Positions 7,443 through 62,455 of a DNA stretch of 64,000 nucleotides are shown piece after piece. Each line of letters opens with the position of its first letter. The first letter of the stretch is position 1. The translations under genes were made by a program, and so were the position numbers. The notes under the pieces were generated by a model, which saw nothing but the letters and a program-made list of their open reading frames with translations, was not told the origin of the DNA and searched no databases. Origin of the DNA: Prostheceraeus crozeri (lineage: Eukaryota; Platyhelminthes; Polycladida; Euryleptidae); NCBI GenBank assembly GCA_907163375.1, contig CAJQUW010007745.1, forward strand, positions 62,001 to 126,000. The letters run 5' to 3'.

Positions 7443-7559
7443 GATGTGATGAAGATGCCAAAGTCGAGGAGAGTTCAGATTCGAATGGTTATCTGCGGCA
7501 GGTTCATAAGGCAGCCGCGAATTTTGGTGATATAACGAAAATTGCAACTAATTATCTGT

Positions 7560-20640: not shown

Positions 20641-20749
20641 TAACTTTAGTAGATTACTTCAATAATTCGCACTTAACGGACGATCTGAATTTGATCGATC
20701 AAGAAGATCGTTCAATCCTCTTTTTCAGATTTCGGGTGTTCGAAATGCA

Positions 20750-23147: not shown

Positions 23148-23151
23148 TTAA

Positions 23152-30825: not shown

Positions 30826-31312
30826 AGAATTGACCTGACATGAAAGATGATGAATGATGAACTATGTTAGTAGAGCAGGCTAGAAAAGGTGGTTAGTAAA
30901 AGAGAAATTCACGATAACTGTCAAGTTCAGTTCTATTATTGATGGAAGGATTAAATCGATGTATGAAGAATGCCTCACGTAGTCGCAAATTAATGTTGTC
31001 ATCGTCGTGGGCTAGAACTAGCGATGCTGGTGTGTTCCACTTGACAATTTCGAACATGCTTGAAAATAGATGAAGTTGGAGTTGAGAAGTGCTCTTTAAA
31101 GCGGACATAGTGGTCTTATAGTACTGCCTATATAAAATTGGTTACATTTCTTGCAGCCTATTTTATATACAACATTTTTTCGATTACATTGCTTCATTCT
31201 TTTTTAGTTGTTGACGAAGAGTTTTGTTGCGTCTAGTTATAGTCCGGCAGCCAGCACGAGTTTCTGCAGGGAACGAGGCCGAAAATGAGACTTTCACAGA
31301 ATGATGTACACC

Positions 31313-31891
31313 CTATGCCTACTACGAATCGGCACGTCTGCCGAGTTCTAGTGAGTTCCTCTTCTTGTCAGACAGGATCAAAGAAAAACACGTGTAAATC
31401 CAATGGAACGCAGATTTTTTTTGACAAAAATGAAATTTTCTATGTTTTCTCTGATTAAACGAAAAGTACCAAGCCCAGAGTCATAATTTTTGGCATGGAA
31501 TGTCTTCAGGTCATTTCCTATGATGTGCGTGTGCTATTATCAATCTTCTGATTGACAATGCATGTGAGAATGTGGTTGAATGCGGATAAAGTTGCTCAAA
31601 ATGTTTGTGTTTGCCGACATTAAGAGGCTCGCCAAATCTAAATGTGGTTAGCTTTATAGACAGGGATGCATGAAAATGAAAGGAAATGACCTGAAGATAT
31701 TTTATGCCAAAAATTATGACTTTGCGCTTATTACTTTTCGTTTAATCAGAGAAAACATGCAAAATTTCATTTTAGCCAAAAAACTGCAATCTGCGTCCCA
31801 TTGGATTTACATGTGTTTTTCTTTGATCTTGTCTGACAAGAAGAGGAACTCACTAGAGCTCGGCAGACGTGCCGATTCGCAGTAGGCATAG
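31313..31891. repeat. Palindromic core of foldback copy 1
   Basis: Left CTATGCCTACTACGAATCGG and right CCGATTCGCAGTAGGCATAG are complementary with one mismatch; pairing continues for about 200 bp per arm (for example GAGTTCCTCTTCTTGTC / GACAAGAAGAGGAACTC). The short middle (about 31520-31660) is unpaired. There is no conserved open frame. Confidence 0.9.
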
Positions 31892-32724
31892 AGTGTACAT
31901 CATTCTGTGACAGTCTCATTTTCGGCCTCGTTCCCTGCAGAAACTCGTTTTGACTGCCGGACTATGAGGTGTACATCATTCTGTGAAAGTCTCACTTTCG
32001 GCCTCGTTCCCTGCAGAAACTCGTTTTGACTGCCGGACTATGAGGTGTACATCATTATGTGAAAGTCTCATTGTCGGCCTCGCTCCCTGCAGAAACTCGT
32101 TTTGACTGCCGGACTATGAGGTGTACATCATTCTGTGAAAGTCTCATTGTCGGCCTCGCTCCCTGCAGAAACTCGTGCTGGCTGCCGGACTATGAGGTGT
32201 ACATCATTCTGTGAAAGTCTCATTGTCGGCCTCGTTCCCTGCAGAAACTCGTGCTGGCTGCCGGACTATGAGGTGTACATGATTCTGTGAAAGTCTCACT
32301 TTCGGCCTCGTTCCCTGCAGAAACTCGTTCTGGCTGCCGGACTATGAGGTGTACATCATTGTGTGAAAGTCTCATTGTCGGCCTCGTTTCCTGCAGAAAC
32401 TCGTGCTGGCTGCCGGACTATGAGGTGTACATCATTGTGTGAAAGTCTCATTGTCGGCCTCGTTTCCTGCAGAAACTCGTGCTGGCTGCCGGACTATGAG
32501 GTGCACATCATTCTGTGAAAGTATCATTGTCGGCCTCGTTCCCTGCAGAAACTCGTTCTGGCTGCCGGACTATGAGGTGCACATCATTCTGTGAAAGTAT
32601 CATTGTCGGCCTCGTTCCCTGCAGAAACTCGTTCTGGCTGCCGGACTATGAGGTGTACATCATTGTGTGAAAGTCTCATTGTCGGCCTCGTTCCCTGCAG
32701 AAACTCGTTCTGGCTGCCGGACTA
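31892..32724 (+). repeat. Satellite arm, 11 x 76 bp
   Basis: Tandem monomers with the shared core GGTGTACATCATTCTGTGAAA, then CGGCCTCGTTCCCTGCAG, then GGCTGCCGGACTATG. Monomers near the core carry CTCGTTTTGACTGCC; those further out carry CTCGTTCTGGCTGCC, so variants are spatially ordered. Confidence 0.95.
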
Positions 32725-32740
32725 TTAATCGAACGTTGAG

Positions 32741-35353: not shown

Positions 35354-36088
35354 ATGCCGTCTACTCCTGTGAATACTAGGTCAAAAGGTGTGACATCTGC
35401 AGCTTTGACTTTGCAAGATGTTAAAGCCCTTCTCGACAATAGCAAGAATGAGATTGTTAGCCTGTTGAAACCTGAATTGGACCGTATTGCATCTTCACTT
35501 GAGGCTGTTCACAAACGTATCGACTGCATTGAGAATTCTGTCTCTGAAATGAAATCGATTGTCTCAAAACATGAAGAGCAAATCAAGGCTGTTGGTGTGC
35601 TTCTTAATTCGACTCTATCGCAAGAAAGTATCCATAATTATATGTCTGTGGAGATTGATGAACGCCTTTATTGGCTCAATAATGTCATTATATCGGGAAT
35701 CCAAGAGTCTGCTGGTTCTATCGATGAACGAATTGCTGAAGATGAAAAGAAAATTGTTCACATGTTGAATGAGCTTGGTAAGCCTATTGAAGTTGGTTCC
35801 ATAGTCAAGATGCAGCGTATTGGTCCTGCTGGTTCTCATGCTAGACTACTGCGGTTAACCCTTGATGGTTTGCATTCAAGAAATTCTCTCTTGTCGAAAG
35901 CCAAAAATTTACGGAAATCAGATTCTTTTCGGAACGTTTTTGTGAACTCGGATAGAACAAAGGCTCAAAGGTTAGAATTGAAAAGGCTGAGAGATGAATT
36001 AAGGGATAGAAAATCAAAAGGTGAAAATGTGACTATATATAATTGTCAGGTTGTTGATCGTAATGACGTGTCTGGAAATTTTCATTGA
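35354..36088 (+). CDS. LINE A ORF1 (coiled-coil RNA-binding-type protein)
   Basis: Intact frame from ATG at 35354 (MPSTPVNTRSKG) to TGA at 36086-36088, 244 residues. A predicted coiled coil (about residues 20-90: LLDNSKNEIVSLLKPELDRI and IENSVSEMKSIVSKHEEQI) is followed by a region with NNVIISGI, then IVKMQRIGP and LRDELRDRKSKGE, the pattern of LINE ORF1 proteins with a degenerate RRM and C-terminal nucleic-acid-binding domain. In the family ORF1 packages element RNA. The stop overlaps the next frame (start region 36085), so ORF2 would need reinitiation or frameshifting. Confidence 0.82.
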   Translation: MPSTPVNTRSKGVTSAALTLQDVKALLDNSKNEIVSLLKPELDRIASSLEAVHKRIDCIENSVSEMKSIVSKHEEQIKAVGVLLNSTLSQESIHNYMSVEIDERLYWLNNVIISGIQESAGSIDERIAEDEKKIVHMLNELGKPIEVGSIVKMQRIGPAGSHARLLRLTLDGLHSRNSLLSKAKNLRKSDSFRNVFVNSDRTKAQRLELKRLRDELRDRKSKGENVTIYNCQVVDRNDVSGNFH

Positions 36089-37832
36089 GGGATTTTACAT
36101 ACACAGAGAACAAAGTGTTTCCTACTATGCTCCTAATGAACGCTAGATCCCTTTTGCCTAAGTTTGATGAACTTTGTGCTGTTTTGTCATGTTTGCATCT
36201 TGGTATTGTAATGATAACGGAATCATGGTTACGTTCTAATATTTCGGATGATATTATTAGTATTCATGGTTATAATTTGTTTCGTTGTGACCGTATAAAT
36301 CGAATCGGAGGGGGTGTTTGTGCTTACATATCATCTAATTTCCCGTGTTTTCCTGCTGCATACTCTTCTTTTCCGTCTGAAATAGAAGTTTTATCACTGC
36401 GTATACCTTCTTTGCATATGTTTGTGGTCTGTACGTATATTCCTCCTGGTTTAAAAGTCAATGTGCTCAATAGAATGTGCTCGGTGGTTCATCGACATCT
36501 CGTCGCATTAAAGCTGAAACAGGCTACCGGTTACGACGGTATTTGTGCATTTCTGTTGCGAGAAAGTGCTGATTTTATATGTGATCCCCTAGCAGACATT
36601 TACACAGCTTCAGTGAATTCACGAACCTTTCCGACTTACTGGAAAAATGCCTATGTAAAACCTATCCCTAAAGTAAGAAATCCATCCATTTCAGACTTTC
36701 GCCCGATTTCATTGCTGCCGATAATTTCAAAGCTATTTGAACGAATTGTGTTGCTATCCATGAAGCCTACATTTGTTCAATCATTTGGTAGTGAACAGCA
36801 TGCCTTTCGGCCTCTCGGCTCAACGAGTAGTGCCCTTATAGATATACTTGACTGCATTACGGCCTATATGGAAGATCAGGAAAATCTTTATGTCAGGCTT
36901 GCATCTCTCGACTTTTCCAAGGCCTTCGATAAAATCCACTATAATAGAATGATCAAAACTATAACAAGGGCTTCATTTTGTGGCTTTCTTCATTTTTGTC
37001 AAATCGATGCCAACCATTATGCACAAATGGCAGTATCGGTCCTTTGTCTTATGTAAAGTCCGGTGTGCCTCAGGGTTCTACTTTCGGGCCATATCTTTTT
37101 TCCATCTTTATCGGGACTCTGACAATAAAATCTCAGAGTGGAAAGCTTGTCAAGTATGCTGATGACCTCACTCTTATTGAATCCTGTACGAAACATCAGC
37201 CGAATCCAGATCATATGTCAATTGTATCATCGTGGTCGCATGTGAACAAACTATTTTTGAACTCAAGGAAGTGCAAACAGATGTTTTTTCGTCGCAAAAA
37301 GGATGCTCCCACATTTGCTTACACAGATGTTGAGCTTGCTAGCACAATTTCTATTCTTGGTGTAACATTCACAGATGACTTAAAGTGGAACAAGCATTTT
37401 GATAACATTTTACTGTCTGCAACTCGTCGTTTGTATGTGATACGCACTCTAAAACCATATGTTTCCAAAGAAAAGTTGCTAGAAGTATTCCACAGTTGTA
37501 TCGTTTCACTTTTGATGTATGCAACTCCTTTATTTTGTGATATGTCAACTGAAATATGTCACAGAATCAAGAAATTTCGAAAACGCGCCCATCGTTTAAT
37601 TTGTAGCCAAGAGTGTAAATGCTCAATCATCCCTGATTTCGATAACATGCATAAAAGTTTGTCGTGTAAATTTCTTACAAAGTGTAAATCTCCAGATCAT
37701 CCTTTACATGAACATGTGCCTCCAAAAATGCCTTGTACTGGACATTTTTGTTTACCTCATTTTTCAACGTTTAGACGTCAGAATTCATTTTTTATCTGGT
37801 GTTGCATGATTGATAACGCTGCTGAAATCTGA
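36085..37832 (+). pseudogene. LINE A ORF2 (endonuclease / reverse transcriptase), deleted and frameshifted
   Basis: The first ATG in frame is at 36127. An AP-endonuclease N-terminus (MNARSLLPKFDEL, ITESWL, GGGVCAYIS) is fused after VVCTYIPPGLKV directly to the reverse transcriptase (LKQATGYDGI, FRPISLLPIISKLFE, HAFRPLGSTSSAL, LDFSKAFD). The endonuclease end with GDFN and SDHN, and the domain linker, are missing, roughly 300 residues by comparison with LINE B. A frame change near 36980-37050 leads to SGVPQGSTFGP, the catalytic KYADDLT, and a C-terminus ending at 37832. It has lost nicking activity and would not be autonomous. Confidence 0.88.
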
Positions 37833-37993
37833 CCTCTCCATTACTGTTGTATAATGTATATTTGTCAAAGCCTGCATGTTACAGAAAGTGATCATTTTAT
37901 ATGTAAGTTCGTGCTGATTTGCTATTTCTGTGTTTGTATATTTGATTTCTATTTACTTTCAATAAACGCATTACTTACTTACTTACTTACTTA

Positions 37994-40399
37994 GAACTAC
38001 TGCATTTTTTGTTGATATGCTGGATACTGAGTTGTTACGGTATCCCAGTTCACATTTTGTTATTTGTGGGGATTTCAACCAGTTTGACACATCTATATTT
38101 TCTCAGCAATTTTCTATGCGTAACTATGTGACAGTACCTACTCGTGTAAATTCTTTGTTGGATCAGATTTGGTTATCCCATGCCCTTACTGACTGCTATT
38201 TGGAAGATGCTAGGGTGGGCCCTCCGATCAGTTCATCAGATCATAATATTGTTATTTTGGATGGAAGGCATAAAGCAAGTACAGTTAAGCAGATAACGAA
38301 AGTATGGGATTTTAGAAGATCAAATGTCGATATGTTTTTGTATCTTTTGTCAATTGGATTACAAGACTTTGCCACTAGAATGGAAGGTTCATCTGTCGAT
38401 GATATGTGCCATGACTTTTATTGTATTTTTCATGCTGCATTATCATTTATCCCATTTACCTACGTGGCCTTTTCTAAGAACGACAAGCCATGGATCACTC
38501 CGATTTTGAAAGATTTAATCAACAAGCGTTTGGAGTGCATATAGACTCAGAAATTGGCCACTATATTTTCATTATAAAGATCGTGTTAAAAATGAATTGA
38601 TAAAAGCAAAACGTATATGGACTAAAAAGCACATCAATTCTTCTAAAAATATTTGGAAAGTTGTTAATGAGACCAGAGGTAAAAGTAATGCATGTGTTTT
38701 CGGTTCGCTTATCAATACTTATGGTGGTATTGATTGCTTTCTTCATTGTGTTTCTTCATTGTGCAAGTACTTGTGGGCAACTTTAATTATGAAGATGATG
38801 ATGATTCTTGTGATATTCAGGATGTGACTTGAGATATTGAATTCTGTCCTTTTGTTATTGCCAATGCATTGAAATCCATCAAGTTATCAACTGCTGTTGG
38901 TAGTGATGGTATACCAAATCGCCTCATACGTGATGCTGCAGTGCTGTTGTCAGATCCAATCTATCATATTTTCAAAAGGTCTTTAGCAGACAGAATTTTT
39001 CCTGCATGTTGGAAATCAGCAGATGTTATTTTGGCTCCGAAATGTAGAAACCCGAAAATTACAGACTTTCGCCCAATTTCGCTCACCCCCGTGCTCAGTA
39101 AAATTTTTGAAAGACTTGTGCTCAACCATATGATGTCAAGCATTAATGAATTGTATGGTTCTCATCAATTTGCCTTCAGGAAGCATGGGTCCACTGATGC
39201 TGCACTTGTTCGTATGCATGACTATATAACAGAGTGCCTGGATAAATCTGATGTCAAAACTGTTCGAATGACATGCTTAGATCTATTGAAAGCTTTTGAC
39301 AAAGTTTTGCCAAGTCTGATGATCCATCGCCTTAAAAGTGCTGGATTGAATGGTGGTTTTATCCTTTGGATAAAGAGTTACTTAACTTCTCGTTCTCAAA
39401 GAATAAAGTTGAATGGCGTTTACACTTCTCCTGTTGTTGTGCCATCTGGTCTGCCCCAGGGTTCGGTGCTTGGACCAGTATTATTTGCTTCGTTCATGGG
39501 CTCCTTGAATGTTAACTCAGAGGCAGTTGTAGTGATATATGCTGATGATATGACTTTAATAGAGCCGATATTCAAGGATAGTGATTTGCCTAATAATCTG
39601 CACTACATTGAAAGTTGGATGGATATGAACAAGATGTCTTTGAATCTGAAGAAGTCTCAGCAGCTGATTTTCAAGAAAGGTAACTGTTCTTCGGCTGAGC
39701 TTGCCTACGATAATATTAGTCTAACCAAAGCAATAAAGATCCTTGGTGTTAAGTGGAACGACGGCTTGGATTGGTCTTCGCATATAGAGAGAATTCTGAA
39801 GCTTGCGTCACAAAAGCTCTATGTTATTCGTGTCTTGAAACCATACCTCTCTTGTGATAATTTACGTATGGTTTATAATTCCATCATTTTATCAATTTTG
39901 TTGTATGCTGCTCCTGTTTTTGTAGGGCTTCCCAAGACTTTAGAGCAGAAACTTGAATTATTTCACAAAAGAGCACATAGAATAATTTGTAGCAAGTATT
40001 GTGGATGTTGTTTCTTTCCATCTGTTTTGTCCTTGCGTGAAAAACGTGCATATAATCTCCTTAGTAGATGTGAGACATATGTATTCCATCCTTTACACGA
40101 ATTTTTGCCTGTGCGTATGCCAAGAACTAATAAGCTATGTTTACCACCGATCAGCACTTCAAGAAGACTTCACTCATTTTTCCCTTGGTCCTGTGTTTTA
40201 ATGAATTCTTCGACATCATTATGATATTCGTGTTTAGTGTTGACAACAAATCGTACATGTAAAGTTGATAAATTTGTAATTTTGCATGGTTTTGAATGAA
40301 TTATTTTGTACACTATTATTTGTCTTATTGTTCTCATGATTGTAACTCTCGATTTTCATTATTTCAAATATAAACACTTTACTTCTACTTCTACTTCTA
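37994..40399 (+). mobile_element. LINE B, 5'-truncated, directly after LINE A tail
   Basis: Begins within the endonuclease immediately after the (TTAC)n tail of LINE A and ends with a (TACTTC)n tail at 40380-40399. Related to LINE A but clearly a different subfamily judging by the protein and tail sequences. The abrupt 5' start is typical truncation during reverse transcription. Confidence 0.85.
38017..40224 (+). pseudogene. LINE B ORF2, endonuclease C-terminus plus reverse transcriptase
   Basis: The frame 38017-38544 has endonuclease motifs ICGDFNQFD and SSDHNIVI. A stop and frame changes between about 38544 and 38869 break the linker (RVKNELIKAKRIW lies in another frame). The reverse transcriptase 38869-40224 is then open for 451 residues: GSDGIPNRLIRDA, FRPISLTPVLSKIFERLV, FAFRKHGSTDAAL, GLPQGSVLGPVLF, the catalytic IYADDMTLIE, and a long thumb/C-terminal part with ILGVKWNDGLDWSSHI. 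The polymerase block is nearly intact, which suggests a fairly recent insertion. Confidence 0.9.
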
Positions 40400-42157: not shown

Positions 42158-42580
42158 CTGAAGAAGAACAACGTTATTAGAGAGCAATTTGATGAAAATT
42201 TAAATTCAAATCTGAAGGCATGAGACTTATAGGTGCGTAGCATTGTCAAAAATTTATAAATGAGAAGAAATGAGACGAACTTCCAGCAAGAACTTGACAC
42301 GATCGATTTGCAAGATCACCTGCAGACAATTACCTCATTAAAGAGCTCATGTGAAAGCCATAACCAATGTAATGCACAGAGACGAAATACTGAAATATGC
42401 TAACAATGAATTCAATAATTATTATGACTGAAGATGATAGAGAAGACGCTTCTCTAAAGGAAAACTATGGATATGTGCATACTATTGTATTCATATTTTA
42501 TTGCAGCTAATTACATGTACATGTATAGTCAGTTAATTTTCCAGTTGATGGCTATGTAAACGGACTACTATAGTCCTGCA

Positions 42581-43336
42581 TAGTCCTGCAACCAGCATGA
42601 GTTTCTGCAGGGAACGAGGCCGACAGTGAGACTTTCACAGAATAATGTACACCTCACAGTCCGGCAGCCAGCACGAGTTTCTGCAGGGAACGAGGCCGAC
42701 AATGAGACTTTCACAGAATGATGTACACCTCACAGTCCGGCAGCCTGCACGAGTTTGTGCAGGGAACGAGGCCGACAATGAGACTTTCACAGAATGATGT
42801 ACACCTCATAGTCCGGCAGCCAGAGCGAGTTTCTGCAGGGAACGAGGCCGACAATGAGACTTTCACAGAATGATGTGCACCTCATAGTCCGGCAGCCAGC
42901 ACGAGTTTCTGCAGGGAACGAGGCCGACAATGAGACTTTCACAGAATGATGTACACCTCATAGTTCGACAGCCAGCACGAGTTTCTGCAGGGAACGAGGC
43001 CGACAATGAGACTTTCACAGAATGATGTACACCTCATAGTGCGGCAACCAGCATGAGTTTCTGCAGGGAACGAGGCCGACAATGAGACTTTCACAGAATG
43101 ATGTACACCTCATAGTCCGGCAGCCAGCACGAGTTTCTGCAGGGAACGAGGCCGACAATGAGACTTTCACAGAATGATGTACACCTCACAGTCCGGCAGC
43201 CAGCACGAGTTTCTGCAGGGAACGAGGCCGACAATGAGACTTTCACAGAATGATGTACACCTCACAGTCCGGCAGCCAGCACGAGTTTTTGCAGGGAACG
43301 AGGCCAAAAATGAGACTTCCACAGAATGATGCGCAC
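42581..43336 (-). repeat. Left satellite arm, about 10 x 76 bp
   Basis: Inverted orientation relative to the long right arm. Monomers carry CACAGTCCGG or CATAGTCCGG at the junction and are otherwise close to the consensus. Confidence 0.93.
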
Positions 43337-43852
43337 CTATGCTTACTGCGAATTGGCGAGTCTGCCGACTTCAATCAAGTTTCTCTTCTTGTCAGACTCG
43401 ATCAAAGAAAACACATGTTAGTCAGGAAACACATGGAGATTGACATTCGATTAAGACGCAAATTGTCGATGTTTCCTTTGATTAAGCGAAAGGTGCTAAA
43501 CCTAGAGGCATATTTTTGACATGGAATGTCTTCAAGGCACTTTCTATTATGTACAATTGGCAAGCTGCCTTGTCGGCAAACAAGCACTTTGAGCAATTGT
43601 ATCTACATTTAACCACATTCTCGTAGACATTGCCGATCAGAAGCATGACAATCACACTTGCACATCAAAGAAGACATTCAACATCAAACAATACGGCTCA
43701 AAATTGATTAACTTTACCGCAATGAGCGAAACTTTAGAAAATTTCTTTTTAGCAAAAATCTGCATCCCATTGAATTAATTGGTTCCTTCTTAGACCCCAC
43801 CTGACAAGAAGATAGAGCTCGGCAGACGCGTAGATTCGTCGTAGGCATGTAG
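43337..43852. repeat. Palindromic core of foldback copy 2
   Basis: Left CTATGCTTACTGCGAATTGG pairs imperfectly with the right end GATTCGTCGTAGGCATGTAG; internal blocks shared with copy 1 include TTGTCAGACTCGATCAAAGAAA, ATGGAATGTCTTCA and ACCACATTCTCG. It is more diverged between its arms than copy 1. Confidence 0.85.
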
Positions 43853-46800
43853 AGTGCACATCATTCTGTGGAAGTCTCATTGTCGGCCTCGTTCCCTGCA
43901 GAAACTCGTGCTGGCTGCCGGACTATGAGGTGTACATCATTCTGTGAAAGTCTCACTGTCGGCCTCGTTCCCTGCACAAACTCGTGCTGGCTGCCGGACT
44001 ATGAGGTGTACATCATTCTGTGAAAGTCTCATTTTCGGCCTTGTTCCCTGCAGAAACTCGTGCTGGCTGCCGGACTATGAGGTGTACATCATTCTGTGAA
44101 AGTCTCACCGTCGGCCTCGTTCCCTGCACAAACTCGTGCTGGCTGCCGGACTATGAGGTGTACATCATTCTGTGAAAGTCTCATTGTCGGCCTCGTTCCC
44201 TGCAGAAACTCGTGCTGGCTGCCGGACTATGAGGTGTACATCATTCTGTGAAAGTCTCACTGTCGGCCTCGTTCCCTGCACAAACTCGTGCTGGCTGCCG
44301 GACTATGAGGTGTACATCATTCTGTGAAAGTCTCATTTTCGGCCTTGTTCCCTGCAGAAACTCGTGCTGGCTGCCGGACTATGAGGTGTACATCATTCTG
44401 TGGAGTCTCACTGTCGGCCTCGTTCCCTGCACAAACTCGTGCTGGCTGCCGGACTATGAGGTGTACATCATTCTGTGAAAGTCTCATTGTCGGCCTCGTT
44501 CCCTGCAGAAACTCGTGCTGGCTGCCGGACTATGAGGTGTGCATCATTCTGTGAAAGTCTCATTTTCGGCCTCGTTTCCTGCAGAAACTCGTGCTGGCTG
44601 CCGGACTATGAGGTGTACATCATTCTGTGAAAGTCTCATTGTCGGCCTCGTTCCCTGCAGAAACTCGTGCTGGCTGCCGGACTATGAGGTGTACATCATT
44701 CTGTGAAAGTCTCACTGTCGGCCTTGTTCCCTGCACAAACTCATGCTGGCTGCCGGACTATGAGGTGTACATCATTCTGTGAAAGTCTCATTTTCGGCCT
44801 TGTTCCCTGCAGAAACTCGTGCTGGCTGCCGGACTATGAGGTGTACATCATCCTGTGAAAGTCTCACTGTCGGCCTCGTTCCCTGCACAAACTCGTGCTG
44901 GCTGCCGCACTATGATGTGTGCATCATTCTGTGAAAGTCTCATTTTCGGCCTTGTTCCCTGCAGAAACTCGTGCTGGCTGCCGGACTATGAGGTGTACAT
45001 CATTCTGTGAAAGTCTCATTGTCGGCCTCGTTCCCTGCAGAAACTCGTGCTGGCTGCCGGACTATGAGGTGTGCATCATTCTGTGAAAGTCTCATTGTCG
45101 GCCTCGTTCCCTGCAGAAACTCGTGCTGGCTGCCGGACTATGAGGTGTACATCATTCTGTGAAAGTCTCATTGTCGGCCTCGTTCCCTGCAGAAACTCGT
45201 GCTGGCTGCCGGACTATGAGGTGTGCATCATTCTGTGAAAGTCTCATTGTCGGCCTCGTTCCCTGCAGAAACTCGTGCTGGCTGCCGGACTATGAGGTGT
45301 ACATCATTCTGTGAAAGTCTCATTGTCGGCCTCGTTCCCTGCAGAAACTCGTGCTGGCTGCCGGACTATGAGGTGTACATCATTCTGTGAAAGTCTCACT
45401 GTCGGCCTCGTTCCCTGCACAAACTCATACTGGCTGCCGGACTATGAGGTGTACATCATTCTGTGAAAGTCTCATTCTCGGCCTTGTTCCCTGCAGAAAC
45501 TCGTGCTGGCTGCCGCACTATGATGTGTGCATCATTCTGTGAAAGTCTCATTGTCGGCCTCCTTCCCTGCAGAAACTCGCTCTGGCTGCCGGACTGTGAG
45601 GTGTGCATCATTCTGTGAAAGTCTCATTGTCGGCCTTGTTCCCTGCACAAACTCGTGCTGGCTGCCGGACTATGAGGTGTACATCATTCTGTGAAAGTCT
45701 CATTTTCGGCCTTGTTCCCTGCAGAAACTCGTGCTGGCTGCCGGACTATGAGGTGTACATCATTCTGTGAAAGTCTCATTGTCGGCCTCGTTCCCTGCAG
45801 AAACTCGTGCTGGCTGCCGGACTATGATGTGTACATCATTCTGTGAAAGTCTCATTGTCGGCCTCGTTACCTGCAGAAACTCGTGCTGGCTGCCGGACTA
45901 TGAGGTGTACATCTTTCTGTGAAAGTCTCATTGTCGGCCTCCTTCCCTGCAGAAACCCGTGCTGGCTGCCGGACTATGAGGTGTACATCATTCTGTGAAA
46001 GTCTCATTGTCGGCCTCGTTCCCTGCAGAAACTCGTGCTGGTTGCCGGACTGTGAGGTGTGCATCATTCTGTGAGAGTCTCATTGTCGGCCTCGTTCCCT
46101 GCAGAAACTCGTGCTGGCTGCCGGACTATGAGGTGTACATCATTCTGTGAAAGTCTCACTGTCGGCCTCGTTCCCTGCACAAACTCATGCTGGCTGCCGG
46201 ACTATGAGGTGTACATCATTCTGTGAAAGTCTCATTGTCGGCCTCGTTCCCTGCAGAAACTCGTGCTGGCTGCCGGACTATGAGGTGTACATCATTCTGT
46301 GAAAGTCTCATTTTCGGCCTTGTTCCCTGCAGAAACTCGTGCTGGCTGCCGCACTATGATGTGTGCATCATTCTGTGAAAGTCTCATTGTCGGCCTCGTT
46401 CCCTGCAGAAACTCGCTCTGGCTGCCGGACTGTGAGGTGTGCATCATTCTGTAAAAGTCTCATTGTCGGCCTTGTTCCCTGCAGAAACTCGTGCTGGCTG
46501 CCGGACTATGAGGTGTACATCATTCTGTGAAAGTCTCACTGTCGGCCTCGTTCCCTGCAGAAACTCGTGATGGCTGCCGGACTATGAGGTGTACATCATT
46601 CTGTGAAAGTCTCATTGTCGGCCTCGTTCCCTGCAGAAACTCGTGCTGGCTGCCGGACTATGAGGTGTACATCATTCTGTGAAAGTCTCATTGTCGGCCT
46701 CGTTCCCTGCAGAAACTCGCTCTGGCTGCCGGACTATGAGGTGTACATCATTCTGTGAAAGTCTCACTGTCGGCCTCGTTCCCTGCACAAACTCGTGCTG

Positions 46801-49800
46801 GCTGCCGGACTATGAGGTGTATATCATTCTGTGAAAGTCTCATTGTCGGCCTCGTTCCCTGCAGAAACTCGTGCTGGCTGCCGCACTATGATGTGTGCAT
46901 CATTCTGTGAAAGTCTCATTGTCGGCCTCCTTCCCTGCAGAAACTCGCTCTGGCTGCCGGACTGTGAGGTGTGCATCATTCTGTGAAAGTCTCATTGTCG
47001 GCCTCCTTCCCTGCAGAAACTCGCTCTGGCTGCCGGACTATGAGGTGTACATCATTCTGTGAAAGTCTCACTGTCGGCCTCGTTCCCTGCAGAAACTCGT
47101 GCTGGCTGCCGGACTATGAGGTGTACATCATTCTGTGAAAGTCTCATTTTCGGCCTTGTTCCCTGCACAAACTCATGCTGGCTGCCGGACTATGAGGTGT
47201 ACATCATTCTGTGAAAGTCTCATTGTCGGCCTCGTTCCCTGCAGAAACTCGTGCTGGCTGCCGGACTATGATGTGTACATCATTCTGTGAAAGTCTCATT
47301 GTCGGCCACGTTCCCTGCAGAAACTCGTGCTGGCTGCCGGACTATGAGGTGTACATCATTCTGTGAAAGTCTCATTGTCGGCCTCCTTCCCTGCAGAAAC
47401 CCGTGCTGGCTGCCGGACTATGAGGTGTACATCATTCTGTGAAAGTCTCATTGTCGGCCTCGTTCCCTGCAGAAACTCGTGCTGGTTGCCGGACTGTGAG
47501 GTGTGCATCATTCTGTGAAAGTCTCATTGTCGGCCTCGTTCCCTGCAGAAACTCGTGCTGGCTGCCGGACTATGAGGTGTACATCATTCTGTGAAAGTCT
47601 CACTGTCGGCCTCGTTCCCTGCACAAACTCGTGCTGGCTGCCGGACTATGAGGTGTACATCATTCTGTGAAAGTCTCACTGTCGGCCTCGTTCCCTGCAC
47701 AAACTCATGCTGGCTGCCGGACTATGAGGTGTACATCATTCTTTGAAAGTCTCATTTTCGGCCTTGTTCCCTGCAGAAACTCGTGCTGGCTGCCGGACTA
47801 TGAGGTGTACATCATTCTGTGAAAGTCTCATTGTCGGCCTCGTTCCCTGCAGAAACTCGTGCTGGCTGCCGGACTATGAGGTGTACATCATTCTGTGAAA
47901 GTCTCATTGTCGGCCTCGTTCCCTGCAGAAACTCGTGCTGGCTGCCGGACTATGAGGTGTACATCATTCTGTGAAAGTCTCACTGTCGGCCTCGTTCCCT
48001 GCACAAACTCATGCTGGCTGCCGGACTATGAGGTGTACATCATTCTGTGAAAGTCTCACTGTCGGCCTTGTTCCCTGCAGAAACTCGTGCTGGCTGCCGG
48101 ACTATGAGGTGTACATCATTCTGTGAAAGTCTCATTGTCGGCCTCGTTCCCTGCAGAAACTCGTGCTGGCTGCCGGACTATGAGGTGTACATCATTCTGT
48201 GAATGTCTCATTGTCGGCCTCGTTCCCTGCAGAAACTCGTGCTGGCTGCCGGACTATGAGGTGTACATCATTCTGTGAAAGTCTCACTGTCGGCCTCGTT
48301 CCCTGCACAAACTCGTGCTGGCTGCCGGACTATGAGGTGTACATCATTCTGTGAAAGTCTCATTTTCGGCCTTGTTCCCTGCAGAAACTCGTGCTGGCTG
48401 CCGCACTATGATGTGTGCATCATTCTGTGAAAGTCTCATTGTCGGCCTCGTTCCCTGCAGAAACTCGCCCTGGCTGCCGGACTGTGAGGTGTGCATCATT
48501 CTGTAAAAGTCTCATTGTCGGCCTTGTTCCCTGCAGAAACTCGTGCTGGCTGCCGGACTATGAGGTGTACATCATTCTGTGAAAGTCTCACTGTCGGCCT
48601 CGTTCCCTGCAGAAACTCGTGCTGGCTGCCGGACTATGAGGTGTACATCATTCTGTGAAAGTCTCATTGTCGGCCTCGTTCCCTGCAGAAACTCGTGCTG
48701 GCTGCCGGACTATGAGGTGTACATCATTCTGTGAAAGTCTCATTGTCGGCCTCGTTCCCTGCAGAAACTCGCTCTGGCTGCCGGACTATGAGGTGTACAT
48801 CATTCTGTGAAAGTCTCATTGTCGGCCTCGTTCCCTGCAGAAACTCGTGCTGGCTGCCGCACTATGATGTGTGCATCATTCTGTGAAAGTCTCATTGTCG
48901 GCCTCGTTCCCTGCAGAAACTCGCTCTGGCTGCCGGACTGTGAGGTGTGCATCATTCTGTGAAAGTCTCATTGTCGGCCTTGTTCCCTGAAGAAACTCGT
49001 GCTGGCTGCCGGACTATGAGATGTACATCATTCTGTGAAAGTCCCACTGTCGGCCTCGTTCCCTGCACAAACTCGTGCTGGCTGCCGGACTATGAGGTGT
49101 ACATCATTCTCTGAAAGTCTCATTGTCGGCCTCGTTCCCTGCAGAAACTCGTGCTGGCTGCCGGACTATGTGGTGTACATCATTCTGTGAAAGTCTCATT
49201 GTCGGCCTCGTTCCCTGCAGAAACTCGTGCTGGCTGCCGGACTATGAGGTGTGCATCATTCTGTGAAAGTCTCATTGTCGGCCTCGTTCCCTGCAGAAAC
49301 TCGTGCTGGCTGCCGGACTATGAGGTGTACATCATTCTGTGAAAGTCTCATTGTCGGCCTCGTTCCCTGCAGAAACTCGTGCTGGCTGCCGGACTATGAG
49401 GTGTACATCATTCTGTGAAAGTCTCACTGTCGGCCTCGTTCCCTGCACAAACTCATGCTGGCTGCCGGACTATGAGGTGTACATCATTCTGTGAAAGTCT
49501 CATTTTCGGCCTTGTTCCCTGCAGAAACTCGTGCTGGCTGCAGCACTATGATGTGTGCATCATTCTGTGAAAGTCTCATTGTCGGCCTCGTTCCCTGCAG
49601 AAACTCGCTCTGGCTGCCGGACTGTGAGGTGTGCATCATTCTGTGAAAGTCTCATTGTCGGCCTTGTTCTCTGCAGAAACTCGTGCTGGCTGCCGGACTA
49701 TGAGGTGTACATCATTCTGTGAAAGTCTCACTGTCGGCCTCGTTCCCTGCACAAACTCGTGCTGGCTGCCGGACTATGAGGTGTACATCATTCTGTGAAA

Positions 49801-52800
49801 GTCTCATTTTCGGCCTTGTTCACTGCAGAAACTCGTGCTGGCTGCCGGACTATGAGGTGTACATCATTCTGTGAAAGTCTCACTGTCGGCCTCGTTCCCT
49901 GCAGAAACTCGTGCTGGCTGCCGGACTATGATGTGTACATCATTCTCTGAAAGTCTCATTGTCGGCCTCGTTCCCTGCAGAAACTCGTGCTGGCTGCCGG
50001 ACTGTGAGGTGTACATCATTCTGTGAAAGTCTCATTGTCGGCTTCCTTCCATGCAGAAACTCGTGCTGGCTGCCGGACTATGAGGTGTACATCATTCTGT
50101 GAAAGTCTCATTGTCGGCCTCGTTCCCTGCAGAAACTCGTGCTGGTTGCCGGACTGTGAGGTGTGCATCATTCTGTGAGAGTCTCATTGTCGGCCTCGTT
50201 CCCTGCAGAAACTCGTGCTGGCTGCCGGGCTATGAGGTGTACATCATTCTGTGAAAGTCTCACTGTCGGCCTCGTTCCCTGCACAAACTCATGCTGGCTG
50301 CCGGACTATGAGGTGTACATCATTCTGTGAAAGTCTCATTTTCGGCCTTGTTCCCTGCAGAAACTCGTGCTGGCTGCCGGACTATGAGGTGTACATCATT
50401 CTGTGAAAGTCTCACTGTCGGCCTCGTTCCCTGCACAAACTCATGCTGGCTGCCGGACTATGATTTGTACATCATTCTGTGAAAGTCTCATTTTCGGCCT
50501 TGTTCCCTGCAGAAACTCGTGCTGGCTGCCGCACTATGATGTGTGCATCATTCTGTGAAAGTCTCATTGTCGGCCTCCTTCCCTGCAGAAACTCGCTCTG
50601 GCTGCCGGACTGTGAGGTGTGCATCATTCTGTGAAAGTCTCATTGTCGGCCTTGTTCCCTGCAGAAACTCGTGCTGGCTGCCAGACTATGAGGTGTACAT
50701 CATTCTGTGAAAGTCTCACTGTCGGCCTCGTTCCCTGCACAAACTCGTGCTGGCTGCCGGACTATGAGGTGTACATCATTCTGTGAAAGTCTCATTTTCG
50801 GCCTTGTTCCCTGCAGAAACTCGTGCTGGCTGCCGGACTATGAGGTGTACATCATTATGTGAAAGTCTCATTGTCGGCCTCGTTCCCTGCAGAAACTCGT
50901 GCTGGCTGCCGGACTATGATGTGTACATCATTCTGTGAAAGTCTCATTGTCGGCCTCGTTCCCTGCAGAAACTCGTGCTGGCTGCCGGACTATGAGGTGC
51001 ACATCATTCTGTGAAAGTCTCATTTTCGGCCTCCTTCCCTGCAGAAACTCGTGCTGGCTGCCAGACTATGAGGTGCACGTCATTCTGTGAAAGTCTCATT
51101 GTGGGCCTCGTTCTCTGCAGAAACTCGTGCTGGCTGCTGCCAGACCATGAGGTATGCATCATTCTGTGAAAGTCTCATTGTCGGCCTCGTTCCCTGCACA
51201 AACTCGTGCTGGCTGCCGGACTATGAGGTGTACATCATTCTGTGAAAGTCTCATTGTCGGCCTCGTTCCCTGCAGAAACTCATGCTGGCTGCCGGACTAT
51301 GAGGTGTACATCATTCTGTGAAAGTCTCATTTTCGGCCTTGTTCCCTGCAGAAACTCGTGCTGGCTGCCGGACTATGAGGTGTACATCATTCTGTGAAAG
51401 TCTCATTGTCGGCCTCGTTCCCTGCAGAAACTCGTGCTGGCTGCCGGACTATGAGGTGTACGTCATTCTGTGAAAGTCTCATTGTCGGCCTCGTTCCCTG
51501 CAGAAACTCGTGCTGGCTGCCGGACTATGAGGTGTACATCATTCTGTGAAAGTCTCACTGTCGGCCTCGTTCCCTGCAGAAACTCGTGCTGGCTGCCGGA
51601 CTATGAGGTGTACATCATTCTGTGAAAGTCTCATTTTTGGCCTTGTTCCCTGCAGAAACTCGTGCTGGCTGCCGGACTATGAGGTGTACATCATTCTGTG
51701 AAAGTCTCATTGTCGGCCTCGTTCCATGCAGAAACTCGTGCTGGCTGCCGGACTATGAGGTGTACATCATTCTGTGAAAGTCTCATTGTCGGCCTCGTTC
51801 CCTGCAGAAACTCGTGCTGGCTGCCGGACTATGAGGTGTACATCATTCTGTGAAAGTCTCATTGTCGGCCTCGTTCCCTGCACAAACTCGTGCTGGCTGC
51901 CGGACTATGAGGTGTACATCATTCTGTGAAAGTCTCAGTGTCGGCCTCGTTCCCTGCAGAAACTCGTGCTGGCTGCCGGACTATGAGGTGTACATCATTC
52001 TGTGAAAGTCTCATTGTCGGCCTCGTTCCCTGCAGAAACTCGTGCTGGCTGCCGGACTATGAGGTGTACATCATTCTGTGAAAGTCTCACTGTCGGCCTC
52101 GTTCCCTGCAGAAACTCGTGCTGGCTGCCGGACTATGAGGTGTACATCATTCTGTGAAAGTCTCACTTTCGGCCTCGTTCCCTGCAGAAACTCGTGCTGG
52201 CTGCCGGACTATGAGGTGTACATCATTCTGTGAAAGTCTCATTGTCGGCCTCGTTCCATGCAGAAACTCGTGCTGGCTGCCGGACTATGAGGTGTACATC
52301 ATTCTGTGAATGTCTCATTGTCGGCCTCGTTCCCTGCAGAAACTCGTGCTGGCTGCCGGACTATGAGGTGTACATCATTCTGTGAAAGTCTCACTGTCGG
52401 CCTCGTTCCCTGCACAAACTCGTGCTGGCTGCCGGACTATGAGGTGTACATCATTCTGTGAAAGTCTCATTTTCGGCCTCTCTCCCTGCAGAAACTCGTG
52501 CTGGCTGCCGCACTATGAGGTGTACATCATTCTGTGAAAGTCTCATTGTCGGCCTCGTTCCCTGCAGAAACTCGCACTGGCTCCCGGACTGTGAGGTGTG
52601 GCATCATTCTGTAAAGTCTCATAGTCGGCCTCGTTCCCTGCAGAAACTCGTGCTGGCTGCCGGACTATGAGGTGTACATCATTCTGTGAAAGTCTCACTG
52701 TCGGCCTCGTTCCCTGCAGAAACTCGTGCTGGCTGCCGGACTATGAGGTGTACATCATTCTGTGAAAGTCTCATTTTCGGCCTCGTTCCCTGCAGAAACT

Positions 52801-55800
52801 CGTGCTGGCTGCCGGACTATGAGGTGTACATCATTCTGTGAAAGTCTCATTGTCGGCCTCGTTCCCTGCAGAAACTCGCTCTGGCTGCCGGACTATGAGG
52901 TGTACATCATTCTGTAAAAGTCTCATTTGCGGCCTCCTTCCCTGCAGAAACTCGTGCTGGCTGCCGCACTATGATGTGTACATCATTCTGTGAAAGTTTC
53001 ATTGTCGGTCTCGTTCCCTGCAGAAACTCGTGCTGGCTGCCGGACTATGAGGTGTACATCATTCTGTGAAAGTCTCACTCTCGGCAATGTTCCCTGCAGA
53101 AACTCGTGCTGGCTGCCGGACTATGAGGTGTACATCATTCTGTGAAAGTCTCATTGTCGGCCTCGTTCCCTGCACAAACTCGTGCTGGCTGCCGGACTAT
53201 GAGGTGTACATCATTCTCTGAAAGTCTCATTTTCGGCCTTGTTCCCTGCAGAAACTCGTGCTGGCTGCTGGACTATGAGGTGTACATCATTCTGTGAAAG
53301 TCTCACTGTCGGCCTCGTTCCCTGCACAAACTCATGCTGGCTGCCGGACTATGAGGTGTACATCATTCTGTGAAAGTCTCATTTTCGGCCTTGTTCCCTG
53401 CTGAAACTCGTGCTGGCTGCCGCACTATGATGTGTGCATCATTCTGTGAAAGTCTCATTGTCGGCCTCGTTCCCTGCAGAAACTCGTGCTGGCTGCCGGA
53501 CTATGAGGTGTACATCATTCTGTGAAAGTCTCACTGTCGGCCTCGTTCCCTGCACAAACTCATGCTGGCTGCCGGACTATGAGGTGTACATCATTCTGTG
53601 AAAGTCTCATTTTTGGCCTTGTTCCCTGCAGAAACTCGTGCTGGCTGCCGGACTATGAGGTGTACATCATTCTGTGAAAGTCTCATTGTCGGCCTCGTTC
53701 CATGCAGAAACTCGTGCTGGCTGCCGGACTATGAGGTGTACATCATTCTGTGAATGTCTCATTGTCGGCCTCGTTCCCTGCAGAAACTCGTGCTGGCTGC
53801 CGGACTATGAGGTGTACATCATTCTGTGAATGACTCACTGTCGGCCTCGCTCCCTGCTCACACTCGTGCTGGCTGCCGGACTATGAGGTGTACATCATTC
53901 TGTGAAAGTCTCATTTTCGGCCTCGTTCCCTGCAGAAACTCGTGCTGGCTGCCGGACTATGAGGTGTGCATCATTCTGTGAAAGTCTCATTGTCGGCCTC
54001 GTTCCCTGCAGAAACTCGTGCTGGCTGCCGGACTGTGAGGTGTACATCATTCTGTGAAAGTCTCATTGTCGGCCTTGTTCCCTGCAGAAACTCGTGTTGG
54101 CTGCCGGACTGTGAAGTGTACATCATTCTGTGAAAGTCTCATTGTCGGCCTCGTTCTCTGCAGAAACTCGTGCTGGCTGCCGGACTGTGAGGTGTACATC
54201 ATTCTGTGAAAGTCTCATTGTCGGCCTCGTTCCCTGCAGAAACTCGTGCTGGCTGCCGGACTATGAGGTGTATATCATTCTGTGAAAGTCTCATTGTCGG
54301 CCTCGTTCCCTGCAGAAACTCGTGCTGGCTGCCGGACTATGAGGTGTACATCATTCTGTGAAAGTCTCATTGTCGGCCTCGTTCCCTGCAGAAACTCGTG
54401 CTGGCTGCCGCACTATGATGTGTGCATCATTCTGTGAAAGTCTCATTGTCGGCCTCGTTCCCTGCAGAAACTCGCTCTGGCTGCCGGACTATGAGGTGTG
54501 CATCATTCTGTGAAAGTCTCATTGTCGGCCTTGTTCCCTGCAGAAACTCGTGCTGGCTGCCGGACTATGAGATGTACATCATTCTGTGAAAGTCTCACTG
54601 TCGGCCTCGTTCCCTGCACAAACTCGTGCTGGCTGCCGGACTATGAGGTGTACATCATTCTCTGAAAGTCTCATTTTCGGCCTTGTTCCCTGCAGAAACT
54701 CGTGCTGGCTGCCGGACTATGAGGTGTACATCATTCTGTGAAAGTCTCATTGTCGGCCTCGTTCCCTGCACAAACTCGTGCTGGCTGCCGACTATGAGGT
54801 GTGCATCATTCTGTGAAAGTCTCATTGTCGGCCTCGTTCCCTGCAGAAACTCGTGCTGGCTGCCGGACTATGAGGTGTACATCATTCTGTGAAAGTCTCA
54901 TTGTCGGCCTCGTTCCCTGCAGAAACTCGTGCTGGCTGCCGGACTATGAGGTGTACATCATTCTGTGAAAGTCTCACTGTCGGCCTCGTTCCCTGCACAA
55001 ACTCATGCTGGCTGCCGGACTATGAGGTGTACATCATTCTGTGAAAGTCTCATTGTCGGCCTCCTTCCCTGCAGAAACCCGTGCTGGCTGCCGCACTATG
55101 ATGTGTGCATCATTCTGTGAAAGTCTCATTGTCGGCCTCGTTCCCTGCAGAAACTCGCTCTGGCTGCCGGACTGTGAGGTGTGCATCATTCTGTGAAAGT
55201 CTCATTGTCGGCCTTGTTCTCTGCAGAAACTCGTGCTGGCTGCCGGACTATGAGGTGTACATCATTCTGTGAAAGTCTCACTGTCGGCCTCGTTCCCTGC
55301 ACAAACTCGTGCTGGCTGCCGGACTATGAGGTGTACATCATTCTGTGAAAGTCTCATTGTCGGCCTCGTTACCTGCAGAAACTCGTGCTGGCTGCCGGAC
55401 TATGAGGTGTACATCATTCTGTGAAAGTCTCATTGTCGGCCTCGTTCCCTGCAGAAACTCGTGCTGGCTGCCGGACTATGATGTGTACATCATTCTCTGA
55501 AAGTCTCATTGTCGGCCTCGTTCCCTGCAGAAACTCGTGCTGGCTGCCGGACTATGAGGTGTACATCATTCTGTGAAAGTCTCATTGTCGGCCTCCTTCC
55601 ATGCAGAAACTCGTGCTGGCTGCCGGACTATGAGGTGTACATCATTCTGTGAAAGTCTCATTGTCGGCCTCGTTCCCTGCAGAAACTCGTGCTGGCTGCC
55701 GGACTGTGAGGTGTGCATCATTCTGTGAGAGTCTCATTGTCGGCCTCGTTCCCTGCAGAAACTCGTGCTGGCTGCCGGATTATGAGGTGTACATCATTCT

Positions 55801-58586
55801 GTAAAAGTCTCACTGTCGGCCTCGTTCCCTGCACAAACTCATGCTGGCTGCCGGACTATGAGGTGTACATCATTCTGTGAAAGTCTCATTTTCGGCCTTG
55901 TTCCCTGCAGAAACTCGTGCTGGTTGCCGGAATATGCCATGCACATCATTCTGTGAAAGTCTCATTTTCGGCCTCGTTCCCTGCAGAAACTCGTGCTGGC
56001 TGCCGCACTATGATGTGTGCATCATTCTGTGAAAGTCTCATTGTCGGCCTCGTTCCCTGCAGAAACTCGTGCTGGCTGCCGGACTATGAGGTGTACATCA
56101 TTCTGTGAAAGTCTCATTTTCGGCCTCGTTCCCTGCAGAAACTCGTGCTGGCTGCCGGACTGTGAGGTGTACATCATTCTGTGAAAGTCTCATTGTCGGC
56201 CTCGTTCCATGCAGAAACTCGTGCTGGCTGCCGCACTATGATGTGTGCATCATTCTGTGAAAGTCTCATTGTCGGCCTCGTTCCCTGCAGAAGCTCGTGC
56301 TGGCTGCCGGACTATGTGGTGTACATCATTCTGTGAAAGTCTCATTGTCGGCCTCGTTCCCTGCAGAAACTCGTGCTGGCTGCCGGACTATGAGGTGTAC
56401 ATCATTCTGTGAAAGTCTCATTGTCGGCCTCGTTCCCTGCAGAAATTCGTGCTGGTTGCCGGACTGTGAGGTGTGCATCATTCTGTGAAAGTCTCATTGT
56501 CGGCCTTGTTCCCTGCAGAAACTCGTGCTGGCTGCCGGACTATGAGGTGTACATCATTCTGTGAAAGTCTCACTGTCGGCCTCGTTCCCTGCACAAACTC
56601 ATGCTGGCTGCCGGACTATGAGGTGTACATCATTCTGTGAAAGTCTCATTTTCGGCCTTGTTCCTGCAGAAACTCGTGCTGGCTGCCGGACTATGAGGTG
56701 TACATCATTCTGTGAAAGTCTCATTGTCGGCCTCCTTTCCTGCAGAAACTCGTGCTGGCTGCCGGACTATGAGGTGTACATCATTCTGTGAAAGTCTCAT
56801 TGTCGGCCTCGTTCCCTGCAGAAACTCGTGCTGGTTGCCGGACTGTGAGGTGTGCATCATTCTGTGAGAGTCTCATTGTCGGCCTCGTTCCCTGCAGAAA
56901 CTCGTGCTGGCTGCCGGACTATGAGGTGTACATCATTCTGTGAAAGTCTCACTGTCGGCCTCGTTCCCTGCACAAACTCATGCTGGCTACCGGACTATGA
57001 GGTGTACATCATTCTGTGAAAGTCTCACTGTCGGCCTCGTTCCCTGCAGAAACTCGTGCTGGCTGCCGGACTATGAGGTGTACATCATTCTGTGAAAGTC
57101 TCATTGTCGGCCTCGTTCCCTGCATAAACTCGTGCTGGCTGCCGGACTATGAGGTGTACATCATTCTGTGAAGGTCTCATTGTCGGCCTCGTTCCCTGCA
57201 GAAACTCGTGCTGGCTGCCGGACTATGAGGTGTACATCTTTCTGTGAAAGTCTCATTGTCGGCCTCGTTCCCTGCACAAACTCGTGCTGGCTGCCGGACT
57301 GTGAGGTGTACATCATTCTGTGAAAGTCTCATTGTCGGCCTCGTTCCATGCAGAAACTCGTGCTGGCTGCCGCACTATGATGTGTGCATCATTCTGTGAA
57401 AGTCTCATTGTCGGCCTCGTTCCCTGCAGAAGCTCGTGCTGGCTGCCGGACTATGAGGTGTACATCATTCTGTGAAAGTCTCATTGTCGGCCTCGTTCCC
57501 TGCAGAAACTCGTGCTGGCTGCCGGACTATGAGGTGTACATCATTCTGTGAAAGTCTCATTGTCGGCCTCGTTCCCTGCAGAAACTCGTGCTGGTTGCCG
57601 GACTGTGAGGTGTGCATCATTCTGTGAAAGTCTCATTGTCGGCCTCGTTCCCTGCAGAAACTCGTGCTGGCTGCCGGACTATGAGGTGTACATCATTCTG
57701 TGAAAGTCTCACTGTCGGCCTCGTTCCCTGCACAAACTCATGCTGGCTGCCGGACTATGAGGTGTACATCATTCTGTGAAAGTCTCATTTTCGGCCTTGT
57801 TCCTGCAGAAACTCGTGCTGGCTGCCGGACTATAAGGTGAACATCATTCTGTGAAAGTCTCATTGTCGGCCTCGTTCCCTGCAGAAACTCGTGCTGGCTG
57901 CCGGACTGTGAGGTGTACATCATTCTGTGAAAGTCTCATTGTCGGCCTCGTTCCCTGCAGAAACTGGTGCTGGCTGCCGGACTATGAGGTGTACATCATT
58001 CTGTGAAAGTCTCATTTTCGGACTTATTCCTGCAGAAACTCGTGCTGGTTGCCGGAATATGCCATGCACATCATTCTGTGAAAGTCTCATTTTCGGCCTC
58101 GTTCCCTGCAGAAACTCGTGCTGGCTGCCGGACTATGAGGTGTACATCATTCTGTGAAAGTCTCATTGTCGGCCTCGTTCCCTGCAGAAACTCGTGCTGG
58201 CTGCCGGACTATGAGGTGTACATCATTCTGTGAGAGTCTCATTGTCGGCCTCGTTCCCTGCAGAAACTCGTGCTGGCTGCCGGACTGTGAGGTGTACATC
58301 ATTCTGTGAAGGTCTCATTGTCGGTCTCGTTCCCTGCAGAAACTCGTGCTGGCTGCCGGACTATGAGGTGTACATCATTCTGTGAAAGTCTCATTGTCGG
58401 CCTCGTTCCCTGCAGAAACTCGTGCTGGTTGCCGGGATATGCCATGCACATCATTCTGTGAAAGTCTCATTTTCGGCCTCGTTCCCTGCAGAAACTCGTG
58501 CTGGCTGCCGGACTATGAGGTGTACATCATTCTGTGAAAGTCTCATTGTCGGCCTCGTTCCCTGCACAAACTCGTGCTGACTGCCG
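43853..58586 (+). repeat. 76-bp satellite array, about 194 copies (14.7 kb)
   Basis: Consensus blocks in order: GGACTATGAGGTGTACATCA, TTCTGTGAAAGTCTCATTGT, CGGCCTCGTTCCCTGCAG, AAACTCGTGCTGGCTGCC, 76 bp in total. The length divided by 76 gives about 194 units with very few indels (75-bp units near 56655 and 57795). Most units have CTGCAG (PstI); variants with TGCACAAACTC lack it. Since 76 is not a multiple of three, any frame rotates and meets TGA within three units, so the 76-codon frames here are artefacts. Unit identity looks high throughout. Confidence 0.97.
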
Positions 58587-61927: not shown

Positions 61928-62455
61928 GCTGTTAAACGCTCAATACCAATCACATAGGAAGGATGCATACCAAAATATTTTTGGTATATTTTTGTATCCA
62001 TTTTGTATGCATTTCAAATGTGATATGCTTTACATACTAAAGCCATACCAGCACAGTACTAGAGGAAAGTATCAATGATGTCTAAAAAATGTTGACTGAA
62101 GGTCTTTAGTCAATAAAGATCACATTAATGTTACTACTGTTCTGTAAGTAGTAAGATAATAACATTCAAGAGGCAAACGTGCAATAATTAATTCGATTTT
62201 AATGCATGTAAGTCTAATTCACAATAAGTCACGAAATTCACAATTAATCTAATCTAGTTAAATATCACACTATCAAAAAGAAATATTTACGACTGGTTGT
62301 ACTGAAAAAAGATATTTGACTGTAGTACGTACATTTTTTTGCTATATAACTTAAAGCTCTAGATGCGAGAGACGTCTAATAAGGATGAATTTGTATCAGG
62401 TGTCGTGTATAAAACATCATGCCAACAACTCGTATTTCATTGTAAAACAGCAATT
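61928..62455 (+). mobile_element. 1-kb MITE family, internally shortened copy 5
   Basis: Starts CGCTGTTAAACGCTCAATACC and shares GGATGCATACCAAAATATTTT and ATGCTTTACATACTAAAGCC with the other copies. It ends near 62455 (TTTCATTGTAAAACAGC), with about half of the family length deleted. Confidence 0.75.

Follow-up and report, generated by a model that had tools for sequence, protein, structure and literature searches.

A foldback-type element of the flatworm Prostheceraeus crozeri with its terminal inverted repeat multiplied into 76-bp tandem arrays

A 14.7-kb array of 76-bp units in the Prostheceraeus crozeri genome forms one arm of a dispersed foldback element whose own terminal inverted repeat (TIR, 73 bp), together with 3 bp, makes up the repeated unit. 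The array lies in a 64,000-nucleotide stretch of the contig labelled C6438 (hereafter the window), which contains two copies of the element, denoted E1 and E2. Taken as a whole, our results make it probable that a non-autonomous foldback element had its terminus duplicated outward, that its arms recombined, and that the array of E2 grew in place by blocks of units.

The coordinates of both copies are given in Table 1. TRF reported arrays of period 76 at 31893-32725 in E1 (11.0 copies) and at 42579-43338 (10.0 copies) and 43854-58586 (193.9 copies, 94% matches, 0% indels) in E2, the array at 42579-43338 being opposite in orientation to the other two. A unit-by-unit walk along the right arm of E2 recovered 194 units, of which 187 were exactly 76 bp long and differed from the consensus by a mean of 2.28 mismatches; the last unit ends in CTGCCG and lacks the terminal GACTA. 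A preliminary description of the window had joined the 14.7-kb array to a core and about 10 inverted units, and had read 31240-32724 as inverted unit, core and direct units with 1 and 11 units; the TRF arrays, the unit walk and the orientations bear out the former, and the latter holds as well. The 727-nt segment of E1 comprising unit, core and unit was predicted to fold at -299 kcal/mol, compared with -81 ± 5 kcal/mol for 20 shuffles (z-score -47). The palindrome of the E2 core is much weaker than that of E1, its two arms sharing 73% (0.726) identity, and the arms are 0.826 and 0.815 identical to the arm consensus of 28 single-unit copies (gaps excluded in all three values). The E2 core is not supported as a separate subfamily: its own counterpart L032 aside, the best matches of its arms are to the common family; the core arms of another copy, L061, are likewise closest to the common family. 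A segment at 5693-5771 of the window shows 84% similarity to part of the E1 core and may be what remains of an old copy of this family.

Table 1 Positions and structure of E1 and E2 in the window
Feature	Position	Strand	Description
TSD left of E1	31237..31239	.	TTA, 3 bp
E1 left arm	31240..31312	-	one terminal unit
E1 core	31313..31893	.	palindrome: arms ~210 bp, spacer ~150 bp
E1 right arm	31894..32724	+	11 direct units
TSD right of E1	32725..32727	.	TTA, 3 bp
E2 left arm	42571..43338	-	10 inverted 76-bp units; outer tip with duplicated TAGTCCTGCA
E2 core	43339..43853	.	515 bp; decayed copy of the element's palindromic centre
E2 right arm	43854..58586	+	194 direct 76-bp units (run-away array)

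Several other features were found in the window. A 568-aa open frame at 5841-7547 (minus strand) carries a DSL domain and EGF repeats and is Delta-like; its best 120 listed proteins are mostly from animals, at 26-42% identity. A coiled-coil open reading frame gave no match in a protein search, and Rfam at gathering thresholds and ARAGORN found nothing across the window. Remnants at 1650-2177 and 9911-10639 (both minus strand) match the Pfam families HTH_Tnp_Tc3_2 and DDE_Tnp_1_7, the latter of which we take to be of the piggyBac type. Inverted copies of another dispersed repeat family, with 76-91% identity, occur at 22638-24813, 28901-29872, and 61929-62451. Inverted repeats of 93-99% identity at 20038-21247, with a 72-bp tandem repeat within, perhaps represent another foldback-type element.

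Searched with the E1 core, the genome (2.05 Gb, 14165 contigs) yielded 6440 candidates at first look, and the best 40, which were scored and include the window's own copy, are nearly full length with 91-100% identity. For 30 of these 40 copies, flanks of up to 1.5 kb were read on the two sides. The innermost unit pair was readable at both ends in 29 (L009, whose right end is missing, was dropped), and in 26 of the 29 identical 3-bp sequences stand directly outside TAGTCCGGCAGCC...GGCTGCCGGACTA. The three exceptions are E1 itself (L001), which was measured at its innermost right unit and has outer flanks TTA/TTA, L002 (TAT/CTT), and L005 (TTA/TAA). The duplicated target sequences (target site duplications, TSDs) vary and include TAA, TCA, TTT, AAA, GTG, ACG, and GAA, among others. 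The usual length of the measured copies is 727 bp, made up of one unit, the palindromic core, and one unit. Because of the identical flanks, the ordinary element is ~727 bp long with one unit per end, and the repeated unit is its terminus, as the preliminary description had proposed in calling the monomer a multiplied TIR. The apparent youth of the single-unit copies is partly a matter of choice, since the sample consists of those 40 among the 6440 candidates that most resemble the E1 core. Genome-wide, a core-junction pattern had 1157 + 1156 exact matches. By eye, one copy (L018) apparently interrupts an older unit of the same family. Two others sit midway between the arms of longer inverted repeats measuring 611 bp (99%; L010, contig C13878) and 272 bp (97%; L005, contig C12856), and L091 (C1923:536600-537900) is a deletion derivative with ~60 bp of core left between two terminal units.

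With hairpin-folding TIRs (seen in E1), inverted and direct arms of units around a core, and 3-bp TSDs, the element has the properties of the foldback class. It also resembles MITEs in being short (~727 bp), present in many copies, and bounded by TIRs and TSDs of fixed length, with no transposase gene found. Units followed by neither the usual core nor a unit start gave 312 + 287 matches. Fifteen stretches, chosen for unusual junction letters among the first 100 listed, included no transposase-bearing copy; all 15 were the element, its derivatives or unit arrays, and their frames longer than 110 aa were few and short, the longest being 155 aa. The element would thus be a non-autonomous, MITE-like foldback DNA transposon of the cut-and-paste type, presumably mobilised in trans by a transposase. 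Members of the PIF/Harbinger superfamily have 3-bp TSDs of the form TWA, from which the TSDs here depart in including TCA, TTT, AAA, GTG, ACG, and GAA. The Zator superfamily has an ISAzo13-related transposase, and AcademX has an Academ transposase. The available text of PMC10045372 gives a TSD of 3 bp for Zator and of 3-4 bp for AcademX. By TSD length an affiliation with Zator or AcademX is possible; for Zator the length agrees, and a profile search with PF07592 gave no match, as did its 14 controls.

Tandem units of the element recur throughout the genome. One exact unit-unit junction pattern had 4757 + 4543 = 9300 matches, of which 118 fall inside the window, and the reversed control had none. 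A direct genome search with the 76-bp unit gave no match, which does not speak against its presence because such a search passes over very common words. The first 100 listed junction places formed 13 clusters, all of which were fetched and read; one array (C14) runs to its contig end and hence stands outside the 12 that could be assessed. A core or part of one adjoins eight of these 12, with the units pointing outward. Given as inverted units/core/direct units, they are 12/core/11 (C157a; outer flanks CTA/TAT, by eye), 14/core with the right side beyond the fetched stretch (C46), 1/core/2 with matching outer flanks TTT (C22), 1/core/2 with matching outer flanks ATA (C267b), 2/core/4 with matching outer flanks TAG (C275a), 17/~75 bp of core/0 (C157b), 0/~140 bp of core/10 (C267a), and 3/part of core/0 (C267c). 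No core was seen at the remaining four: C15, of which only the edges were read and where 6.7 kb separate the first and last junction matches, C275b (7 units), C275c (3 units), and C304 (9 units, ~190 bp, 1 unit opposite). The expectation in the preliminary description that arrays and cores co-occur, with most arrays having a core, therefore held in this small sample. Both outer ends could be read in five multi-unit copies with a core, and four of these (E1, C22, C267b, and C275a) had matching 3-bp flanks by eye, the exception being C157a.

The four core-less arrays could also be read as parts of a pre-existing satellite that an unrelated palindromic core invaded, the association of the two being incidental. 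However, every copy read that has both arms carries its units in opposite orientation on the two sides of the core, and the TSDs of single-unit copies lie outside the unit, not outside the core; we consider such an invasion extremely improbable.

An origin of the arrays from multiplied termini would also show in the linker between units. If the terminal 73 bp and 3 adjoining bp were duplicated outward, the linker CTA-TGA-GGTG would result. The linker is mainly TGAG at all 16 distinct loci counted, 13 of which were found through a pattern that itself contains TGAG. The other three, E1, E2, and the counterpart contig C7773 described below, were found independently of it, and TGAG was seen in L080 and L083 as well; other junction letters occur at L079 and L086. 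We suggest that the tandem state had one origin and that three linker bases are a relic of the target duplication, although the pattern-based choice of 13 of the 16 loci and the other junction letters elsewhere mean that a single origin is not proven.

The E2 insertion has a counterpart with short arms. Both E2 flanks recur on C7773 (19.9 kb). The right flank (701 bp) gave 425 candidates, 40 of which were scored, and matched in full length only at the window and on C7773 (91%); the remaining 38 scored matches covered only a dispersed repeat at the flank's end. C7773 is collinear with the window from a point inside E1 as far as 61.3 kb, interrupted by insertions in one sequence or the other. 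Mismatches amount to 2.4-5.3% of aligned columns in six flanking blocks and to 37/502 in the core. About 5.5 kb of the window (34919-40399) is missing from the corresponding part of C7773 and is probably a non-LTR retrotransposon insertion, since it contains reverse-transcriptase frames. The E1 counterpart on C7773 has about three direct units, after which comes the right flank of E1; the E2 counterpart has ~5 units in its inverted arm, the innermost of them partly deleted, and ~5 in its direct arm. The unit counts of C7773 may be low through collapse, because the contig shows numerous gaps of 1-2 bp and may not have been polished. C7773 may be the other haplotype or a duplicate. The same insertion is thus present with short and long arms on two contigs.

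The preliminary description had one arm grown about 18-fold relative to a sister copy at 31240. The arithmetic (194/11) is right, but the copy at 31240 is a separate insertion and no sister; against the ~5 direct units of its true counterpart, the long arm of E2 stands at a ratio of ~39. E2 and its counterpart end on the right in the same truncated unit (CTGCCG|AGATCTCC), so that the normal right end of E2 appears to have been lost before the two copies parted, and the arm length to have changed later. E2 has likely lost its mobility, although the loss of its outer right end is no proof of this because every internal unit still carries a terminus.

The counterpart with only ~5 + 5 units, together with the fact that the array is known from assembled contigs alone, might mean that the 14.7-kb array, or the point where it joins the core, is an assembly artefact. 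We regard an artefact as very unlikely, given that the units vary in sequence and yet keep a regular length (76 bp in 187 of 194), that core-array junctions recur at other loci, and that a second long array exists at C15.

The order of variant units within E2 points to copying of blocks. A 14-unit block recurs at a distance of 73 units, and blocks of 6-7 units reappear 15 and 27 units apart. The best block-segment score was 12, whereas 200 shuffles of the unit order reached 9 at most, and none of 1000 shuffles had a best lag that equalled the variant sharing at lag 73. Adjacent units had fewer derived variants in common (0.030) than random pairs (0.057 ± 0.010), all 1000 shuffles being equal or higher. 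With neighbours less alike than random pairs, unit-by-unit slippage was not supported as the main mode of growth; the better fit is growth by blocks, whether through unequal exchange, gene conversion or break-induced copying. After the outward duplication of the terminus, arms would gain and lose units through recombination between units, and E2 was most likely an old copy, its normal right terminus already gone, when the 194-unit arm grew in place through the copying of blocks of several units.

Growth in place is also suggested by the contrast between core and units. In E2 the core arms have a mean identity to consensus of 0.733, compared with 0.973 for the units (gaps counted), and the corresponding core and unit values are 0.753/0.969 in L061, 0.740/0.972 in L069, and 0.790/0.964 in L063. 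E1 is without that contrast (core 0.949, units 0.970). In single-unit copies the units are likewise less diverged than the cores (slope 0.21); all seven multi-unit copies fall below the single-unit line, with residuals from -0.002 to -0.050, the older ones further. This comparison skipped L064, L065, L066, L068, L073, L074, and L075, in which an arm or unit was not measurable, and left out L001, L031, and L062 as repeats of other entries; the 3-unit copies L018, L047, L067, and L071 belong to neither group, and the 56 'single' rows include some loci twice (some of L045-L060 overlap others). Since E2 is an old copy without a normal right terminus, with a decayed core and fresh units, its array probably grew where it stands.

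Fresh units in an old copy might also come from other loci. Units could be exchanged among dispersed arrays, by interlocus gene conversion or by reinsertion of excised circles, which would make the long array one member of a genome-wide pool rather than the product of local growth alone. E2, L061, L068, L069, and L075 have the same unit consensus letter for letter; right-arm units of E2 differ by 5.0% among themselves and by 3.7-8.3% from other multi-unit groups; some non-consensus units are common to several loci, such as a G48C unit in 5 loci; and the core arms are 14-29% off consensus, compared with 3-5% for the units, in six of seven multi-unit copies (not in E1). On the other hand, G5 and T37 reach 18-19% in E2 and 0-10% at other multi-unit loci, and T67 stands at 62% in C7773 and is absent from E2, which argues for local amplification. 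Part of the contrast between core and units must have another cause, because single-unit copies show it too. We hold exchange between loci to be a possible but doubtful main explanation; it could act jointly with growth in place. The unit sequences fit local amplification that drew on a shared pool of fairly recent units.

Foldback elements with tandem sub-repeats include FB of Drosophila and TU of the sea urchin, which we liken to the present element by description, not by sequence. PMC4079207 refers to foldbacks of Drosophila melanogaster and the sea urchin, and its available text describes the closest parallel, Tetris of Drosophila virilis. Tetris is a non-autonomous foldback with tandem repeats inside its TIRs, to which satellite-like arrays of up to 66 copies of ~220 bp (TIR-220) are attributed, and in which adjacent repeats are no more alike than distant ones (PMC4079207). 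Compared by description only, Tetris has a separate flanking domain outermost and the repeats inside, whereas here the 76-bp unit carries the tip, and its TSD is 8-10 bp long, compared with 3 bp here (PMC4079207). Galileo, of the P superfamily in Drosophila, also has long TIRs with internal tandem repeats in numbers unequal between arms, but these are two or three ~210-bp repeats inside the TIR, a transposase-coding form is known, and no kb-scale array was seen in the available text (PMC3573991). Tm1, a Mutator/foldback element of root-knot nematodes, likewise has TIRs of variable tandem-repeat number, unequal between arms, but its ~14-bp repeats lie inside 7-bp terminal motifs, its TSD is 9 bp, and some copies encode a putative transposase (PMC3169594). 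As far as these descriptions go, the 3-bp TSD thus sets our element apart from Mutator-type foldbacks, with TSDs of 8-10 bp in Tetris and 9 bp in Tm1.

The preliminary description took both the family and its run-away arm to be undescribed. As an event, the runaway of an arm has a precedent in Tetris, going by the available text of PMC4079207; an element recognisable as the E1/E2 family was not found in the literature searched, in which subscription papers were mostly outside coverage. A text search with the 13-base terminus on either strand, for which most subscription papers also lay outside coverage, matched no paper, and a 36-base unit pattern had no exact match in viral contigs. What seems new is that the repeat itself carries the transposon tip, with a 3-bp TSD. 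In the text available to us, routes from transposon to satellite are reviewed in PMC12628747, and PMC10783647 reports, for the D. virilis group, dispersed tandem arrays that can insert at new sites.

Every repeat of the array is a complete transposon end, and for this reason transposase may cut internally. If it cut at internal ends, repair from other units or loci could lengthen arrays and keep units fresh, giving a satellite driven by transposase and not by ordinary unequal exchange; we think this unlikely, but if it were true, copies no longer able to jump would keep growing and exchanging ends. In one genome, P. crozeri presents the stages side by side: single-end copies with intact TSDs, copies with 2-12 ends per arm, one-sided copies, a 194-unit arm, and core-less arrays. 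The passage from transposon to satellite thereby becomes accessible to dating and testing, and with it the question of whether satellite growth is driven by transposase cutting at multiplied ends.
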